Source: Alcaligenes aquatilis (GTDB taxonomy: Bacteria; Pseudomonadota; Gammaproteobacteria; Burkholderiales; Burkholderiaceae_B). From it: a stretch of 64,000 nucleotides of DNA. Under the pieces are notes generated by a model, which was not told the origin of the DNA, did not search any database, and saw only the letters and a program-made list of their open reading frames with translations. Each line of letters begins with the position of its first letter. Position 1 is the first letter of the stretch. The DNA lies in the NCBI RefSeq assembly GCF_003076515.1, contig NZ_CP022390.1:2418001-2482000 (forward strand), written 5' to 3'. Positions 47,539-54,783 of this stretch are shown here, one piece after another. The position numbers and the translations under genes were made by a program.

Positions 47539-48675
47539 TTAAAAAATCGGAATAGAAAAACGCAGCGCGATGTTCGACTGGCGACTTTCCAGATGACGGC
47601 GAGCTTGCAAACCCACCCTAAGGTGGGGACTGTACCAGAACTGCTGCGTGACCCCAAGGTAGCGATTCTGCCCACCGGCCATTGCCTGCTGCACCTCGTA
47701 CTGGGTCTTGACCTCGCCCCAGCGACGCAAAGGCACGGACAGCCCCACCACCTGTCGGCTGCTGGCCGCATCGATCTTCATGCCCTGATAGCGGCTTAGA
47801 TCCAGGAAGTGATCCTGGTAGCGTTCGCCTTGCCATTGCAGGTGCAAATCATCCAACACATCCAGGCCGTAAGCTGCCTGATAGCGCCAGCCCTGCCCGA
47901 CCGCATGGGAAGCCTTGGCCACACTGGCCTGCCACACCCCAAAATCAGGGGAACGGTAGGTAGCGCCCACCCCGGTCAGGCCAAAATCACGCGCGCTTTC
48001 CATCTGGGTATCAATACTGGTCCTGCTGGTGACGTCGGTGCTGACCATCAAGCTGCTTGCCGACGATCCGTACACCAGATCCCCATTGTCTTGCTTGCCG
48101 GTTATATCCAGCGCACCGACGGCCAGCGCATAGCGCCAAGGACCAGCCGGGCCTTGTTCAAACTGCTGGGTAATATTGATGCCGCCCAGCTCAACAGGCC
48201 GAGCCCAGTCTGGGGCCGTCACCGTGTCATTACCTAGGGTCAACTGCAAGCCATCTTCATTGACGTAGCGCCAATTGCGCTCGCCAAACTGCCAGACCTG
48301 ATCGGGTGCGCTGCTCAACCAGCGCCCATTCCAGATCGGCGAGGACTGCTGACTATATTGAATGGAGCGAGCCAGACTGGCAGTAGTGGAACCGCTCAGG
48401 CTGAAATCAGAAAAAGAAAAATCAAGGGACGCGGCAGAGTTGAGCAAATCCTGGTCGCCCTGGCGATGCCATTGCGAAGCATCAAAAAACGGCTCTACCG
48501 GGGGAAGGTCCTGAGAGGGAATCGCCTGGGCCTCATCCACACCATACACCTGCGTGGCAGACAGGTTCTCCAGCCCGACACGGTTTTGAGCAGTGGCCAA
48601 TGGAACAGCGAACAGCATGGCAAGACCGACAATCAGCCCGCCTGCCAAGCCTCGCTGGCAAGCTTTGGTACGCAT
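47539..48675 (-). CDS. Putative outer-membrane beta-barrel protein, unknown function
   Basis: I do not recognise the family firmly. The 378-residue protein has a signal peptide (about 1-29, hydrophobic core GLIVGLAMLFAVPLA, likely cut after ATAQ or TAQ). The rest is rich in alternating polar and aromatic residues, and it ends RFSIPIF, a C-terminal Phe signature of outer-membrane barrels recognised by BAM. The stretch LQLTLGNDTVTAPDWARPVE resembles a segment of fimbrial usher barrels, so it may be a reduced usher-like barrel without the plug and periplasmic domains. This is weak. No chaperone or pilin gene lies nearby. It is sandwiched between the ClC transporter (21 nt) and recQ (9 nt), which suggests cotranscription. 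Confidence 0.6.
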   Translation of the reverse strand: MRTKACQRGLAGGLIVGLAMLFAVPLATAQNRVGLENLSATQVYGVDEAQAIPSQDLPPVEPFFDASQWHRQGDQDLLNSAASLDFSFSDFSLSGSTTASLARSIQYSQQSSPIWNGRWLSSAPDQVWQFGERNWRYVNEDGLQLTLGNDTVTAPDWARPVELGGINITQQFEQGPAGPWRYALAVGALDITGKQDNGDLVYGSSASSLMVSTDVTSRTSIDTQMESARDFGLTGVGATYRSPDFGVWQASVAKASHAVGQGWRYQAAYGLDVLDDLHLQWQGERYQDHFLDLSRYQGMKIDAASSRQVVGLSVPLRRWGEVKTQYEVQQAMAGGQNRYLGVTQQFWYSPHLRVGLQARRHLESRQSNIALRFSIPIF

Positions 48676-48696: not shown

Positions 48697-50469
48697 TTAG
48701 CGCCGGGCATCCAACATCACTTCGCCGCTCGCATCCAAGGAGCGTTTGATGGCGGAGTATTTTTCCAGCACAGCAGACTTATAGACTACACCAATCAGGC
48801 GGCCCGAGCCGTCACCATTCAATACAGGCAAGCGCTCTCCAGCAAAGCTGACAAAGTGCTCCTGAGCCTCGTCCAGGCTCATATTCGGGTAGAGCGTCTT
48901 GACGAAATCCATACGCAAAATATCGCCCACCACACGCTCCTGGGCAGCGTTGTCGTCCAACAACATCCGGGTCAGGTCAGGCTGGGCAATCACACCTTGA
49001 TAGATCTGCTCCTCGTCCACCACATAAAGATAGCGCACGGGATAATCTAGAAACATCTGCAAGGCATCACGCATTTGGGTGGTGGTGCTGACCACGGTAT
49101 CGGCCGGACGCACCAACTCGGCCAAGGTGGTGTGACGCAATTTGTGACGTAGCAAGGCATCGCGTTCGCGCACCAGTGTGACTTCATACATGGCCACCTC
49201 GGCCACACCCCGCGAGACAAAATAGGCCATGACACAGGCCACGATCAGCGGCAACACCAACTGATAGCTCAATGTCATTTCAAACAGCATCAAAATGGCC
49301 ATGAAGGGCGCACTGGTTGCCGCCCCCAAAAACGCCCCCATGCCCACCAGGGTGAACAGATACAAAGGCAAGTCCAGACCCGGCAAGATCAACACGCTCA
49401 ACTGGCCAAATAAAGTACCAAAGGCGGCGCCCACAAAGATCGCGGGGGTGAACACACCACCGACAGCGCCCGAACCGACTGTCAGGCCCGTCGCCAGAAC
49501 CTTGAGTGCCAGAATCAGCAGCACGCTGTACCAGGCCCAGTCGCTATGCAGCATGGAAGACACGACACTGAAGCCGTTACCTGCCACGCGCGGCATCACG
49601 ATCAGCAAAAGCCCCAGCAACAGGCCCCCCAACGCCAAACGCAAGGGCAGACCCAGGCCGGTACGCTTGAACAGAGTGCGAAACAGATTGAGCAACTTCA
49701 AAAAAGCGGGCGCAGCCAGACCAATCAGCACTCCCAGAACCAGAAAAGGCAGAATATCCCAACCCGCAACCGCCTGCACATTGGTCATTTCATAAGGGGC
49801 GTGATAGCCGCCCAGCACACGCATGGTCAGATGGGCACTAACGGCTGCCATCAACAAGGGGCCAAAGCTGCTCATGGTCATGGTGCCCAGCACAATCTCG
49901 GCCACAAACACAGCGCCGGCAATAGGGGTGCCATAGGCGGCAGCCACCCCGGCTGCGGCACCACAAGCCACCAGCAAACGCAGACGAGCTTCACCAAACA
50001 GCGTGAAACGGCCAATCGCAGAAGCAGACAAGGAAGCCAGGTGTACCATCGCCCCTTCCCGCCCAATAGAGCCGCCCGAGGCCACCGTCATCAAAGAGGA
50101 CAAGGATCGCAGCAAGCCCTGGCGAATGGACAAACGGCCATCACCAATAGCCACTGCTTCCATATAGTCTGAATTGCTGCCCGACGGCAGACGCCCCGCC
50201 AGCCACAACAAGATACCGGCACACAGACCGCCCAAGGTGGGAAACAAAAGGCGCATGTACCAAGGCAAGCTTTCCGTTACCGCGACGATGCCACCGTGCT
50301 GTCCTGTGACCACTTGCTGCACAAAGCGCATGCCCTGATGAAAGGCCAAGGTCGCCAAGGCCCCCAGGATACCGGCCAAGACCGCCCAGGCCAGCATGGC
50401 GGGCATGTCAGACAACCACTTGAAACCCTGCAGACGCTTGCGCATCGACAGCACGGAATGGGCAATCAT
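48697..50469 (-). CDS. ClC-family chloride channel/antiporter with CBS domains
   Basis: Inner-membrane ClC protein, probably a Cl-/H+ antiporter. It has 590 residues: about 18 hydrophobic segments (20-440), then a CBS pair in the cytosol (about 455-575). Motifs: GSIGREGAMVHL has the external gating glutamate of GREGP; YGTPIAGAVFVAE carries the inner proton-path glutamate position; GSGAVGGVFTPAIFVG is the third selectivity segment. The first selectivity motif GSGIP reads GSNSD here, as in some ClC subfamilies. The start lies 8 nt after the CydB-like gene, so coexpression with that pair is likely. Confidence 0.9.
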   Translation of the reverse strand: MIAHSVLSMRKRLQGFKWLSDMPAMLAWAVLAGILGALATLAFHQGMRFVQQVVTGQHGGIVAVTESLPWYMRLLFPTLGGLCAGILLWLAGRLPSGSNSDYMEAVAIGDGRLSIRQGLLRSLSSLMTVASGGSIGREGAMVHLASLSASAIGRFTLFGEARLRLLVACGAAAGVAAAYGTPIAGAVFVAEIVLGTMTMSSFGPLLMAAVSAHLTMRVLGGYHAPYEMTNVQAVAGWDILPFLVLGVLIGLAAPAFLKLLNLFRTLFKRTGLGLPLRLALGGLLLGLLLIVMPRVAGNGFSVVSSMLHSDWAWYSVLLILALKVLATGLTVGSGAVGGVFTPAIFVGAAFGTLFGQLSVLILPGLDLPLYLFTLVGMGAFLGAATSAPFMAILMLFEMTLSYQLVLPLIVACVMAYFVSRGVAEVAMYEVTLVRERDALLRHKLRHTTLAELVRPADTVVSTTTQMRDALQMFLDYPVRYLYVVDEEQIYQGVIAQPDLTRMLLDDNAAQERVVGDILRMDFVKTLYPNMSLDEAQEHFVSFAGERLPVLNGDGSGRLIGVVYKSAVLEKYSAIKRSLDASGEVMLDARR

Positions 50470-50477
50470 AAAAAAGG

Positions 50478-51527
50478 TCAGCCTTTAAAGCTGGGCGGCA
50501 AAGGTGGGCGGGACAATCCAAACATACGCCAATACACCCACACGTTAAATATCAACACGATGGGCAAGGTAATCACAATCGCCGACAGAATCAGGCTCAA
50601 GGCGGGTACCCCGGCGGCGGCGTCCCAGATCGTCATCTCGTCCAGAATCAAATAGGGAAAGAAACTGAAAGCCAAACCCGCCATGACACAGACCATGACG
50701 AACAAAGTCAGCAAAAAGGGCAAGGCGGTAGTGCGATAGCTGCTGTTGATCATGCGCTGCAGGCTCATTTCAATCGACACAAAGCAGCTAAGGATCAAGG
50801 CCCACAAGAACAGGACCAAGCCCCAGTAAGGCCCATCGCTCCATTTAAGCAGCACACCGGCATTCACAAAGGCCAACACCACCGAAACGCCCACCGCACC
50901 GGCCGCAAACCAACGCACCGAGCGACGCCCCCAGTTCACTGCACGGGCACGCAGTTCGCCTGCCTCGCGCATGATGAGCCAACTGGCGCCCAACAAGCAG
51001 TAAGCGGCAATAGCGCAAAAGCCCATGAAGATAGAGAACCAGATATAGCCCGCATCGCTTTGAAAACCTACCACGACTTGTGCCAACAAAACGCCATGGG
51101 AGAACGCCGTCAACCAGGAACCCAGGGCAAAGCCCATTTGCCAGCGAGACTGACGCTCTACCGGTGCACGCAGCCGGAACTCAAAGGAGACGGAGCGGAC
51201 AAAGACTCCCACGCCCAAGGCGCATAAAGGCGCATACAGTCCCCCCATCACTGCACCCCAGGCTTTAGGAAAGGCGCAGACAAACAAGCCCAAACCCAGA
51301 AACAACCAGAATTCGTTGGCATCGCGCCAAGGGCTAAGCAAGGACAGCATGCGCGGGCGCAGGGAATCCGGTGCCAGCAAGGACAGGCAGCCCACACCAA
51401 TATCGAAGCCATCCAGAACCGTACCGGCCACAATAATCAAAAAGAACAGGGCCAAAAAGGCCAGCGGCATCCAGAACGCGGGATCATGGGCCCCCAAACC
51501 CAACGCATTTGCAAAAGAATCAATCAT
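50478..51527 (-). CDS. Cytochrome bd oxidase subunit II-like protein
   Basis: CydB-like membrane protein of 349 residues with about eight or nine membrane segments. The start at 51527 (MIDSFANALGLGAHD) overlaps the preceding gene's stop by 4 nt; a frame reaching 51608 lacks support. The CydB hallmark TVLDGFDIGVG (about 36-46) is present, and the WRDANEFWLFLG segment matches the PxWDGNQVWL region with the Trp replaced. The C-terminal VWVYWRMFG also fits CydB. It presumably pairs with the CydA-like protein. Because that partner lacks heme ligands, I do not assign cydB. Confidence 0.85.
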   Translation of the reverse strand: MIDSFANALGLGAHDPAFWMPLAFLALFFLIIVAGTVLDGFDIGVGCLSLLAPDSLRPRMLSLLSPWRDANEFWLFLGLGLFVCAFPKAWGAVMGGLYAPLCALGVGVFVRSVSFEFRLRAPVERQSRWQMGFALGSWLTAFSHGVLLAQVVVGFQSDAGYIWFSIFMGFCAIAAYCLLGASWLIMREAGELRARAVNWGRRSVRWFAAGAVGVSVVLAFVNAGVLLKWSDGPYWGLVLFLWALILSCFVSIEMSLQRMINSSYRTTALPFLLTLFVMVCVMAGLAFSFFPYLILDEMTIWDAAAGVPALSLILSAIVITLPIVLIFNVWVYWRMFGLSRPPLPPSFKG

Positions 51528-52864
51528 GCCCGACCCCGATGACGTGCGATCGGCACCACACCAAAACGAACGGCATGTCGTAATTTCTGGAAAAAACCAA
51601 TCATGCACAAGACGTAGACCAGGCTATAAAACAGCAAACCCAGTCCCACAGTAAAAACAGGTTCGGTACTTTGCACTTGTACGGCCTGAATATCGTTACC
51701 TACCAGATAAGGCAGAAAGCCCAGCAAGACATACGCTGCGCCGCCCAACAACATGATCCAGCCCAGTACAGACGCGACCACCATACCCTGGCGCTCTCTA
51801 TAAGAAAGCGAATGCGGATCCAGGCCATAACGACGGGTACGCAACCAGACCCACATCAAGAGAAAAAACATCAATGCGCCGGCCAGCACCGCCACACGAA
51901 AGGACCAGAAGGTCAAGGTAACGGGGGGCATGGCTTCAGAAAACTGATCCAGACCCATCAGGATGCCACTGTCATTGCGACCCAGCCAGCGACCACCGGC
52001 GTGTGACCAGCGCAACACACCCAGGACGCTGTCCTGCATGGCCGAGGGCGCAGCGACCAGAATCAGATCAGGTTGCGAGCCGCTTTCCCAATACGCTGCC
52101 GTAGCCGCTGCCTTGGCAGGCTGATGCTCGGCTGTCATGAAACCATTGCCCACCACCGCAAAAACCAGGGCCAGCCAAGCGGCGGCGCCTAAAAACAAGG
52201 CACTACGAAAAGCCAGGCGCTCCTGATCGGTAACCGGTTTTTGCATGGTCTGCGCACAAGTCACGCCCAAAATAAAAAAGGCGACCGTCAATAAACTGCC
52301 TGCAAATAATAGACCGGCATACCACGGCAAGGCCGGTGTGCTGAGCACATCCAGCCACTCCAGCACCACGTAATGGCCTTCAATAACATCCACCCCCGTT
52401 GGCACCTGCATCCAGGCCACCATCGCCACCAGCCAAAATGCCGTCACGGTGACGCCCAGGGCCACCATCAGCACCACCAGGGTATGAACCAGATTGGAGA
52501 GCATGCGCTGGGCAAACAGCATGACACCCAGAAAACAGGACTTGAAGATAAACAGCGACAACATGGAGGCGGCCAGCATCGGGCCAATCACATCACCTAC
52601 CTGCGCCATCAGCCCTGGCCAGACGCTGCCAAACTGAATCAGTACCGGCATGGACGCAGCAAAACTTAAAATGAACGCCAATGCGAACAGACGCACCCAA
52701 AAACGGTACGCGCCCATCCAGGCCGTTGCGTGGCTGCCGAAGGTTCTGACTTTGAAATACAGCAACACCCAGGCCAACCCCAGCTCCAGAGCCAGAAACA
52801 GCAGCATGAATCCCAGACTAAGGAAAAACTGGGCATGAGACAGGGAAAGGGCGGAGTGCGTCAT
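51524..52864 (-). CDS. Divergent cytochrome bd subunit I homologue lacking heme ligands
   Basis: A 446-residue membrane protein that aligns with E. coli CydA from LSHAQFFLSLGFMLLF to the C-terminus. Manual alignment with E. coli CydA shows: His19 (heme b595 ligand) becomes Met20, His186 (b558) becomes Leu185, Met393 (b558) becomes Ala325, Glu99 becomes Ser100 and Glu107 becomes Lys108. Q-loop Lys252 is kept (Lys251), Glu257 becomes Ala256, and the GRQPW motif is missing. Canonical features that remain include FGSVWPGLMAQVGD and the WMQVPTG segment. The fold is plausible but none of the three hemes can be bound in the usual way. It may be an inactive paralogue, a proton/electron module with other cofactors, or a redox sensor. 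A heme-free function is inference. Confidence 0.82.
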   Translation of the reverse strand: MTHSALSLSHAQFFLSLGFMLLFLALELGLAWVLLYFKVRTFGSHATAWMGAYRFWVRLFALAFILSFAASMPVLIQFGSVWPGLMAQVGDVIGPMLAASMLSLFIFKSCFLGVMLFAQRMLSNLVHTLVVLMVALGVTVTAFWLVAMVAWMQVPTGVDVIEGHYVVLEWLDVLSTPALPWYAGLLFAGSLLTVAFFILGVTCAQTMQKPVTDQERLAFRSALFLGAAAWLALVFAVVGNGFMTAEHQPAKAAATAAYWESGSQPDLILVAAPSAMQDSVLGVLRWSHAGGRWLGRNDSGILMGLDQFSEAMPPVTLTFWSFRVAVLAGALMFFLLMWVWLRTRRYGLDPHSLSYRERQGMVVASVLGWIMLLGGAAYVLLGFLPYLVGNDIQAVQVQSTEPVFTVGLGLLFYSLVYVLCMIGFFQKLRHAVRFGVVPIARHRGRA

Positions 52865-52940
52865 AATGAGCGCTAGTGTAGGGTGAATTGGCCAGCAAAC
52901 GCCACCATACTACCCCAAGTTTCCTCCTGATTTTTCAGAA

Positions 52941-52980
52941 CACGTTCATGGGGTAAATACCCCTCTAAAACAAGAACGTG
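52941..52980. promoter_or_regulatory. Inverted repeat between the CydA-like gene and glnS
   Basis: CACGTTC (52941-52947) pairs with GAACGTG (52974-52980); inside is a perfect GGGGTAAATACCCC palindrome (52950-52963). It lies 76 nt upstream of the CydA-like start and 45 nt upstream of glnS. It could be an operator; no FNR box was found. Confidence 0.45.
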
Positions 52981-53025
52981 GCAAAATGGCCGATTCGTCT
53001 GTCGGCTTCTTTATTTCAAACGTGT

Positions 53026-54783
53026 ATGACCTCTGACACCACTCCCGCTCCCGTATCTAATTTTCTGCGCACGATCATCGACCAGGACTTGAGCGCTGGC
53101 CGTTACGCACAAAAGACCTGGGCCGGTCAGCCGGGCCCGGCAAGCACCCAGGAAGGGGCGGCTGTTGATGCCGCGCGTATTCGTACGCGCTTTCCCCCCG
53201 AGCCCAATGGCTATCTGCACATCGGGCACGCCAAAAGTATCTGTTTGAACTTCGGGCTGGCCAGCGACTACCAAGGCGCCTGCCACCTTCGTTTTGACGA
53301 CACCAATCCTGAAAAAGAAGAGCAGGAGTACGTGGACGCCATTATCGACATGGTGAAATGGCTGGGCTTTGACTGGACCTTCAAGAAAGAAGAAAACCTG
53401 TACTTTGCCAGCGACTACTTCGACTATATGTACCAGTTTGCCGAAGCACTGGTAAATGCGGGTCATGCCTACGTTGACGAACAGAACGCTGAACAAATGC
53501 GTATCAACCGTGGCACCCTGACCGAAAAAGGCGTGAACTCGCCCTGGCGCGACCGCCCTGCCGAAGAATCCATCAAGCTCTTGCGCGAAATGCGTGACGG
53601 CAAGCACCCCGATGGCAGTATGGCCTTGCGTGCCAAGGTTGACATGGGCTCGCCCAATATCAATATGCGCGACCCGGTCATGTACCGCATCCGCCACGCG
53701 GAACACCATCGCACGGGCGACAAATGGTGCATCTACCCCATGTACAGTTGGGCACACCCCGTGGAAGATGCGTTGGAGCGCATCACCCATAGCCTGTGCA
53801 CCCTGGAGTTTGAAGACCAGCGCCCCTTTTACAACTGGATTCTGGAGCGTCTGGTCGAGCTGGGTCAGTTATCCGACCCATTGCCCAAACAATACGAGTT
53901 TTCGCGTTTGAACCTGTCCTACGTGGTCACCAGCAAGCGCAAACTGCGTCAACTGGTTCAGGAAAACCGCGTATCAGGTTGGGACGATCCGCGCATGCCT
54001 ACCTTGGCCGGTTTGCGTCGCCGTGGTTACAGCGCCGGCGCCATCCGTCTGTTTACTGACCGTCTGGGTGTGTCCAAAGCCGCCCAGCACGTGGACTACA
54101 GTTTGCTGGAACAAGCTTTGCGCGATGACCTGGATCCCGTGGCCGACCGTAGCGTTGCCATTCTGGATCCGATCGAACTGATCATCACCAACTACCCCGA
54201 AGGCCACAGCGAGCTGTGCCACGCACCGCGCAATCCGCACAATCCGCAGGCTGGTCAACGCGAGTTCCCTTTCTCCGGTCGCCTGTACATCGAGCGCGAG
54301 GACTTCAAGGAAGAGCCACCTAAAAAGTACTTCCGCCTGTTCCCCGGCAATACCGTGCGTCTGAAATATGGCTATGTCGTGCGCTGCACCGGCTGCGTGA
54401 AAGACGAGCAAGGCAATGTCACTCAGGTTCTGGCTGAATACCTGCCTGACACCAAGAGCGGCACGCCCGGTGCGGACTCGGTCAAGGTCAAAGGCAATAT
54501 CACCTGGATCAGCGCCGAGCACGCGATTGCCGCCGAGATCCGTCTGTACGACCGTCTCTTTGCCCATCCCCAGCCCGACGCGGCCGACCAGGACTTCCTG
54601 GAGCACATCAACCCGAACTCGCTGCGCGTGATTCAGGGCTGGCTGGAACCCGGCACCAAGGCCACCCCCGATGCTCGCTGGCAGTTTGAGCGCCTGGGCT
54701 ACTTTGTGGCTGACCGTGTGGATTCGACACCAGAAAAACCCGTTCTTAACCGTACAACGACTCTGAAAGACACCTGGGTCTAA
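53026..54783 (+). CDS. glnS: Glutaminyl-tRNA synthetase
   Basis: Class I aminoacyl-tRNA synthetase that charges tRNA-Gln. The start at 53026 ([18 protein letters not shown]) gives 585 residues; an ATG 48 nt upstream would be longer than the family. The HIGH motif is in [14 protein letters not shown] and the KMSKS-equivalent in YVVTSKRKL. Anticodon-binding beta-barrels fill about 350-585, with [19 protein letters not shown] (partly). Presence of GlnRS indicates direct tRNA-Gln charging in addition to any amidotransferase route. Confidence 0.97.

Follow-up and report, generated by a model that had tools for sequence, protein, structure and literature searches.

A cytochrome bd-like gene pair beside glnS in Alcaligenes aquatilis: a probable redox-dead relative of CIO-type oxidases

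The question raised by this locus is what a cytochrome bd-like complex does once the residues that hold its hemes have been replaced. A 64,000-nucleotide stretch of the Alcaligenes aquatilis genome (contig NZ_CP022390.1, positions 2,418,001 to 2,482,000), referred to below as the window, contains a minus-strand open reading frame (ORF), 52864-51524, which encodes a full-length CydA-like protein of 446 amino acids (P0001), together with a gene for a CydB-like partner. The sequence comparisons reported here suggest that this pair is very probably a redox-dead pseudo-oxidase of the cytochrome bd kind, a heterodimer of CydA/CydB type which arose from a CIO-type ancestor and was given a new function. 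The two genes are located as follows:

51524..52864, minus strand: CydA-like subunit with heme ligands lost, 446 amino acids
50478..51527, minus strand: CydB-like subunit, 349 amino acids; 4-base overlap with the CydA-like ORF; PF02322, 199.3 bits

The CydA-like protein matched the Pfam family Cyt_bd_oxida_I (PF01654) with 247.8 bits, and the CydB-like protein matched Cyt_bd_oxida_II with the score given above. These matches and the overlapping ORFs bore out the initial annotation, which had described a full-length CydA relative with a CydB-like partner. Under NCBIfam, both proteins scored below every curated CydA or CydB cut-off. The closest solved chains to the pair by sequence were bd oxidases, and a structure predicted for the CydA-like monomer alone indicated that the CydA fold is retained. 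The closest relatives of this protein, at 92-94% identity, were from Alcaligenes. The window genome, a single contig of 3.84 Mb, has a second, canonical CydA (L002).

Residues of the window protein were placed by alignment through CIO-type relatives (29-37% identity) and through the canonical CydA of the same genome. The positions of the four canonical heme ligands are:

52805..52807, minus strand: codon of Met20, at the heme d ligand position (E. coli His19)
52310..52312, minus strand: codon of Leu185, at the heme b558 ligand position (His186)
51890..51892, minus strand: codon of Ala325, at the second b558 ligand position (Met393)
51725..51727, minus strand: codon of Leu380, at the heme b595 ligand position (Glu445), within the block replacing E-x-GRQPW

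The alignment showed that all four ligands are replaced. The initial annotation had reported three replacements, to Met20, Leu185, and Ala325, which were confirmed, but it had missed the loss of Glu445. Its assignment of the three ligands to hemes b595 and b558 was right for His186 and Met393, which belong to b558, but passages on current structures give His19 as the ligand of heme d and Glu445 as that of b595 (PMC8324918). The annotation was also correct that Ser100 and Lys108 stand in place of Glu99 and Glu107 and that the GRQPW motif is absent; the window protein has GFLPY there. Two further positions, Lys252 and Glu257, are presumably quinol-site residues, with Glu257 as the quinol-oxidation glutamate. 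The window protein retains the lysine, as Lys251, and has Ala256 at the glutamate position.

We then asked how general these replacements are. The family search covered 200 genomes and gave 129 loci of the same clade, from 121 of these genomes plus eight loci that repeat counted genomes or came from a scan of named genomes; the ligand table covered 167 loci, the 129 and 38 other CydA genes. The clade is marked by a divergent glnS neighbor:

53023..54783, plus strand: glnS (glutaminyl-tRNA synthetase), divergent neighbor marking the locus; start chosen among candidates, ORF listed from 52978

The glnS gene lay beside the CydA-like gene in 125 of 129 loci, always divergent (125/125), and the contigs of the remaining four end upstream of the gene. 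None of the other 38 CydA genes had glnS in the stretch, and all 38 keep His, His, Met, and Glu at the ligand positions as well as Glu99 and Glu107. After omission of L081 (broken ORF) and L168 (cut by the contig end) and merging of identical sequences, 121 unique orthologues were aligned. No native ligand was kept in 105 of them, one in 13, two in 2, and three in 1. His186 was retained in none; the His19 position was His in 5, Leu in 54, and Met in 53; Met393 was kept in 11 and Glu445 in 4. Glu was found at neither the Glu99 nor the Glu107 position in any orthologue, and residue 108 was Lys in 118 and Arg in 3. In contrast to the clade, the Met393 region is described as nearly invariant across bd types in passages of PMC5322542. 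The Glu257 position is Glu in all 36 CIO-type proteins, whereas in the clade Glu was not among the five commonest residues (Ala in 86/121). Arg323 (E. coli Arg391) was present in every orthologue.

Database proteins gave a similar picture. Among the matches listed there were 238 relatives (120 of 419, 120 of 925, and 120 of 260), of which 234 were complete at the ligand positions. None of these 234 had all four ligands; 203 kept none, 26 one, 3 two, and 2 three, and position 108 was Lys in 233 and Arg in 1. Named relatives among the matches listed include Achromobacter, Bordetella, Pusillimonas, and Orrella. One basal member, P0227, reads His, Met, Val, Glu, with Met at the His186 position. 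Among 391 genomes of the same order outside the family, 78 gave matches at or below E 1e-50, and the best 22 of these 78 all keep full ligands. A scan of genome contigs gave 10 loci, of which half belong to the clade and the other five have the complete ligand set.

A substitute heme site was looked for in the 121 orthologues, and no newly conserved His/Met pair had been gained. The only CydA-like histidines conserved at 85% or more were His127 (119/121), a proton-path residue also found in oxidases, and His430 (104/121), close to the C-terminus; the only internal methionine at this level was Met115, which is common to oxidases. In the CydB-like protein, Met60, Met186, and Met254 reached 85% and no histidine did. 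No conserved His lay within four residues of the 325 position in any of the 121. Thus no other conserved His or Met was found at the ligand places, and the novel cofactor that the initial annotation had proposed received no positive evidence. Its view that the known bd oxygen chemistry would be impossible for the window protein is supported by the ligand loss, which is general in the clade. Glu27 was considered as a diagnostic residue; it was present in 161/172 of a first, window-leaning set but in only 66/121 family-wide, and it was dropped.

A tree was built from 86 sequences (LG+F+G4). Its 60 clade tips formed one monophyletic group, with an ultrafast bootstrap of 93 at the clade node, and the clade grouped with the family's own CIO (L059). 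The first branch of the clade consists of L049 (His, Ser, Met, Glu), L066 (His, Leu, Ala, Glu), L054, L053, L052, and L060, and all six carry Lys108 in CydA and Arg68 in CydB. Because of this, Glu99, Glu107, and His186 appear to have been altered first, and the remaining ligands would then have been lost in several lines. The ratio of nonsynonymous to synonymous substitution rates (dN/dS) in 15 pairs was 0.029-0.202 for CydA, 0.007-0.087 for CydB, and 0.023-0.113 for glnS; the CydB value was lower than that of glnS in 13 of the 15, including all eight Alcaligenes pairs. The clade is under strong purifying selection. One member (L081) is split into two ORFs. L060 has a long branch, a CydB lacking the DGFD and WRDANE motifs, and a CydA lacking the C-terminal motif, and it may be decaying.

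The subunit interface was also changed. In solved oxidases the proton route runs between transmembrane helices 2 and 3 of both subunits, according to passages of PMC8951039. The relevant features of the window are:

52541..52543, minus strand: codon of Lys108, at the position of proton-path Glu107; Lys in 118 and Arg in 3 of 121 unique orthologues
51321..51326, minus strand: codons of Arg68-Asp69 of the CydB-like protein; Arg68 replaces the invariant Trp of CIO-type CydB, and Asp69 is retained
51527..51562, minus strand: C-terminal residues 435-446 of the CydA-like protein (GVVPIARHRGRA), conserved in the clade only, by residue frequencies

At CydA position 108 and CydB positions 68 and 69, the residues were Lys-Arg-Asp in 116 of 120 pairs and Arg-Arg-Asp in 2 of 120, compared with Glu-Trp-Asp in 34/34 CIO-type pairs, so that the Trp to Arg switch of the CydB-like protein parallels the changes in CydA. 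Asp39, Asp69, and Asn71 of CydB and His127 of CydA are kept. The C-terminal motif is basic and was gained in the clade: the mean frequency of the commonest residue over residues 435-446 was 0.77 in the 121 orthologues and 0.26 in 35 CIO-type proteins. Q-loop conservation, on the other hand, was lower than in the CIO-type (0.58 versus 0.71).

The clade gene was the only PF01654 member in five genomes (G006, G042, G128, and G174, 99% complete, and G193, 97%); a sixth genome with a single match, G149, was not counted (81% complete, with a further CydA fragment that aligns over 61 positions). No CydD scored over the cut-off in these five genomes, and no CydC did in the four tested for it (G193 was outside this test). 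Both CydD and CydC were present in the three genomes which also have a canonical CydA (G000, G141, and G008), and in the window genome CydDC accompanies the canonical CydA. Therefore, the clade complex can do without a canonical bd partner and may be independent of bd assembly as well. Heme-copper oxidase genes were found in all seven genomes tested.

Part of this clade appears to have a published name. Three bd-type loci, cydAB1, cioAB, and cydAB3, are reported for strain RB50 in passages of PMC11257404. In a Bordetella-like genome (G141), PF01654 was matched by three genes, with 576, 553, and 336 bits. The 336-bit one is the clade gene, and its product shares 90-91% identity with named Bordetella proteins among the matches listed. 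By elimination between these two sets of three, Bordetella cydAB3 (BB4012-4011; BP3225-3224) would be the glnS-side locus. Deletion-size arithmetic from the data in parts of PMC11257404 was compatible with a CydA gene close to 1.34 kb long, which proves nothing. The same passages report low cyd3 transcripts and a strain with cyd3 alone that could not be made; because strains restricted to cco, cio, ctaD2, or cyo2 failed likewise, this failure is weak support. In excerpts of PMC12914433, bp3224-3225 is called not expressed under laboratory conditions. A table row pairs BP3224 with BB4011, and the C/G tract of BP3224 (cydB3) is 9, versus 6 in BB4011 (passages of PMC1891110); an insertion in BP3224 is on record in part of PMC7163038. 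A 2026 review states, in the passage concerned, that Bordetella oxidases were annotated through similarity only (PMC13367067).

The neighboring genes on the other side of the pair were also examined. Downstream of the CydB-like gene lies the following gene:

48697..50469, minus strand: CLC-family channel or antiporter gene with a CBS domain; PF00654, 272.8 bits; 8 bases past the CydB-like stop

This CLC gene is likely co-transcribed with the window pair. An obligate CLC partnership was considered and rejected: among 128 loci, the first recognized gene downstream was a CLC gene in 31, whereas a histidine kinase gene held this place in 74, on the opposite, convergent strand, and therefore no operon joins the kinase with the clade pair. 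Genes for a histidine kinase and an OmpR-type response regulator occur near the locus (L066:6138-7793 and L049:1-810). A 378-residue ORF at window 47539-48675, minus strand, has no Pfam match and recurs at the locus in relatives, and MinC- and MinD-like genes, named from size and order, follow glnS in many loci. No sigma-70-like promoter passed the scan made for one. In the 125 upstream stretches (up to 250 bases), no FNR/ANR-like box was found. A GGGGTA-N2-TACCCC palindrome was present in 7/125, in the window within the gap between glnS and the CydA-like gene (52865-52977), and it was not conserved beyond Alcaligenes.

In the reading we favor, a CIO-type bd oxidase would have abandoned heme binding together with oxygen chemistry and been retained for another membrane job, and the present complex would neither oxidize quinol nor reduce oxygen. 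Several points weigh against this. One to three ligands are retained in 16 of the 121 orthologues, so that one or two hemes may be bound in some basal members; P0210 (His, Met, Met, Glu) has Met at the His186 position and a possible bis-Met heme b site. Heme could also be held with no axial ligand from the protein, or via Lys, Cys, or Tyr. The CydDC test covered a small number of genomes, and CydDC may be dispensable for oxidases of the CIO type. Moreover, deletion of cydAB3 in B. bronchiseptica gave no growth or mouse phenotype, as described in part of PMC11257404. It is nevertheless improbable that the complex is still a heme protein, binding one or more hemes via unusual ligands or acting as a heme carrier. 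Basal members have up to three ligands (L049 and P0210), and Met20, at a position which is Met or Leu in 107/121, could coordinate heme; however, Leu is as common there as Met, His186 is gone from every orthologue, and neither a new His/Met pair nor a conserved His near the 325 position was found. A decaying, functionless relic of a CIO-type oxidase is very unlikely. The split ORF of L081 and the state of L060 fit such decay, as does cydB3, broken in B. pertussis 18323 and 6 of 13 other strains according to passages of PMC11257404, but dN/dS was far below 1 in 15/15 pairs, Lys or Arg at 108 is invariant, and the clade's ORF is open in at least 121 of the 200 genomes of the family. We likewise give little credence to a regulatory or decoy partner of the canonical bd oxidase in the same cell: many carriers, the window genome, G141, and G008 among them, also have a canonical CydA, but in five genomes of at least 97% completeness the clade gene is the sole PF01654 member.

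If the complex is indeed a redox-dead relative of CIO-type oxidases, two functions were considered. The old proton-uptake route at the CydA-CydB interface has been rebuilt with Lys108 of CydA and Arg68-Asp69 of CydB, which by their aligned positions in solved oxidases should lie close together. This Lys-Arg-Asp cluster may either seal the old proton channel or make a non-redox ion path, and the basic C-terminal tail would be a cytoplasmic contact. We tentatively propose that the complex is an ion conduit or gate, for protons or anions, along the old interface channel, with the tail as its cytoplasmic contact. An equally tentative extension is that this heme-free conduit or gate was recharged with Lys108-Arg68-Asp69 and that the proton path was rewired before most heme ligands went, because every basal member keeping one to three ligands has Lys108 and, where CydB was read, Arg68. 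A quinone- or lipid-binding sensor or scaffold, in which the vacated core would bind quinone or lipid and the basic tail would signal occupancy to a cytoplasmic partner, is a slightly less favored alternative. The fold and part of the Q-loop are still there, but the glutamate of the quinol site has gone, Q-loop conservation falls short of that in the CIO-type, and the histidine kinase downstream in 74/128 loci is convergent, with no operon link.

The assignment matters since automatic annotation treats the clade genes as oxygen reductases, so that lists of respiratory enzymes for Alcaligenaceae, among them the Bordetella oxidase sets in the literature, may contain one enzyme too many. The graded series at one syntenic locus, from three ligands kept to none, makes the order of chemistry loss directly testable. 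If the interface channel conducts ions without heme, the bd proton route would be separable from redox chemistry.

At title and abstract level, no description of a heme-free CydA in this family was found, although prior mention is possible, including in the classification of Murali et al. (2021). Bordetella cydAB3 was published as a predicted high-affinity oxidase, and the passages on it do not mention lost heme ligands (PMC11257404). The membrane subunits of Alternative complex III and PsrC were also considered among the closest known systems, with NrfD/ActC-like heme-free quinone subunits as possible structural relatives. The archaeal CydAA' and the OR-C and OR-N bd families of Murali et al. 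(2021) are reportedly, like the clade, CydA paralogues whose cofactors or donor sites have changed. The OR-N family occurs in Nitrospirales, according to part of PMC12342949. The nearest heme-bearing relatives are the CIO-type bd oxidases (CioAB), which share with the clade the length class (446 amino acids in the window protein), the short Q-loop, and the CydA-CydB pair; CIO ancestry is indicated by the relatives and the tree, but the CIO active site is not intact. Compared with the CIO-type, the clade has changed at all heme ligands and at the Glu99, Glu107, Glu257, and Arg448 equivalents, its CydB has Arg-Asp in place of Trp-Asp, and its locus lies beside glnS.
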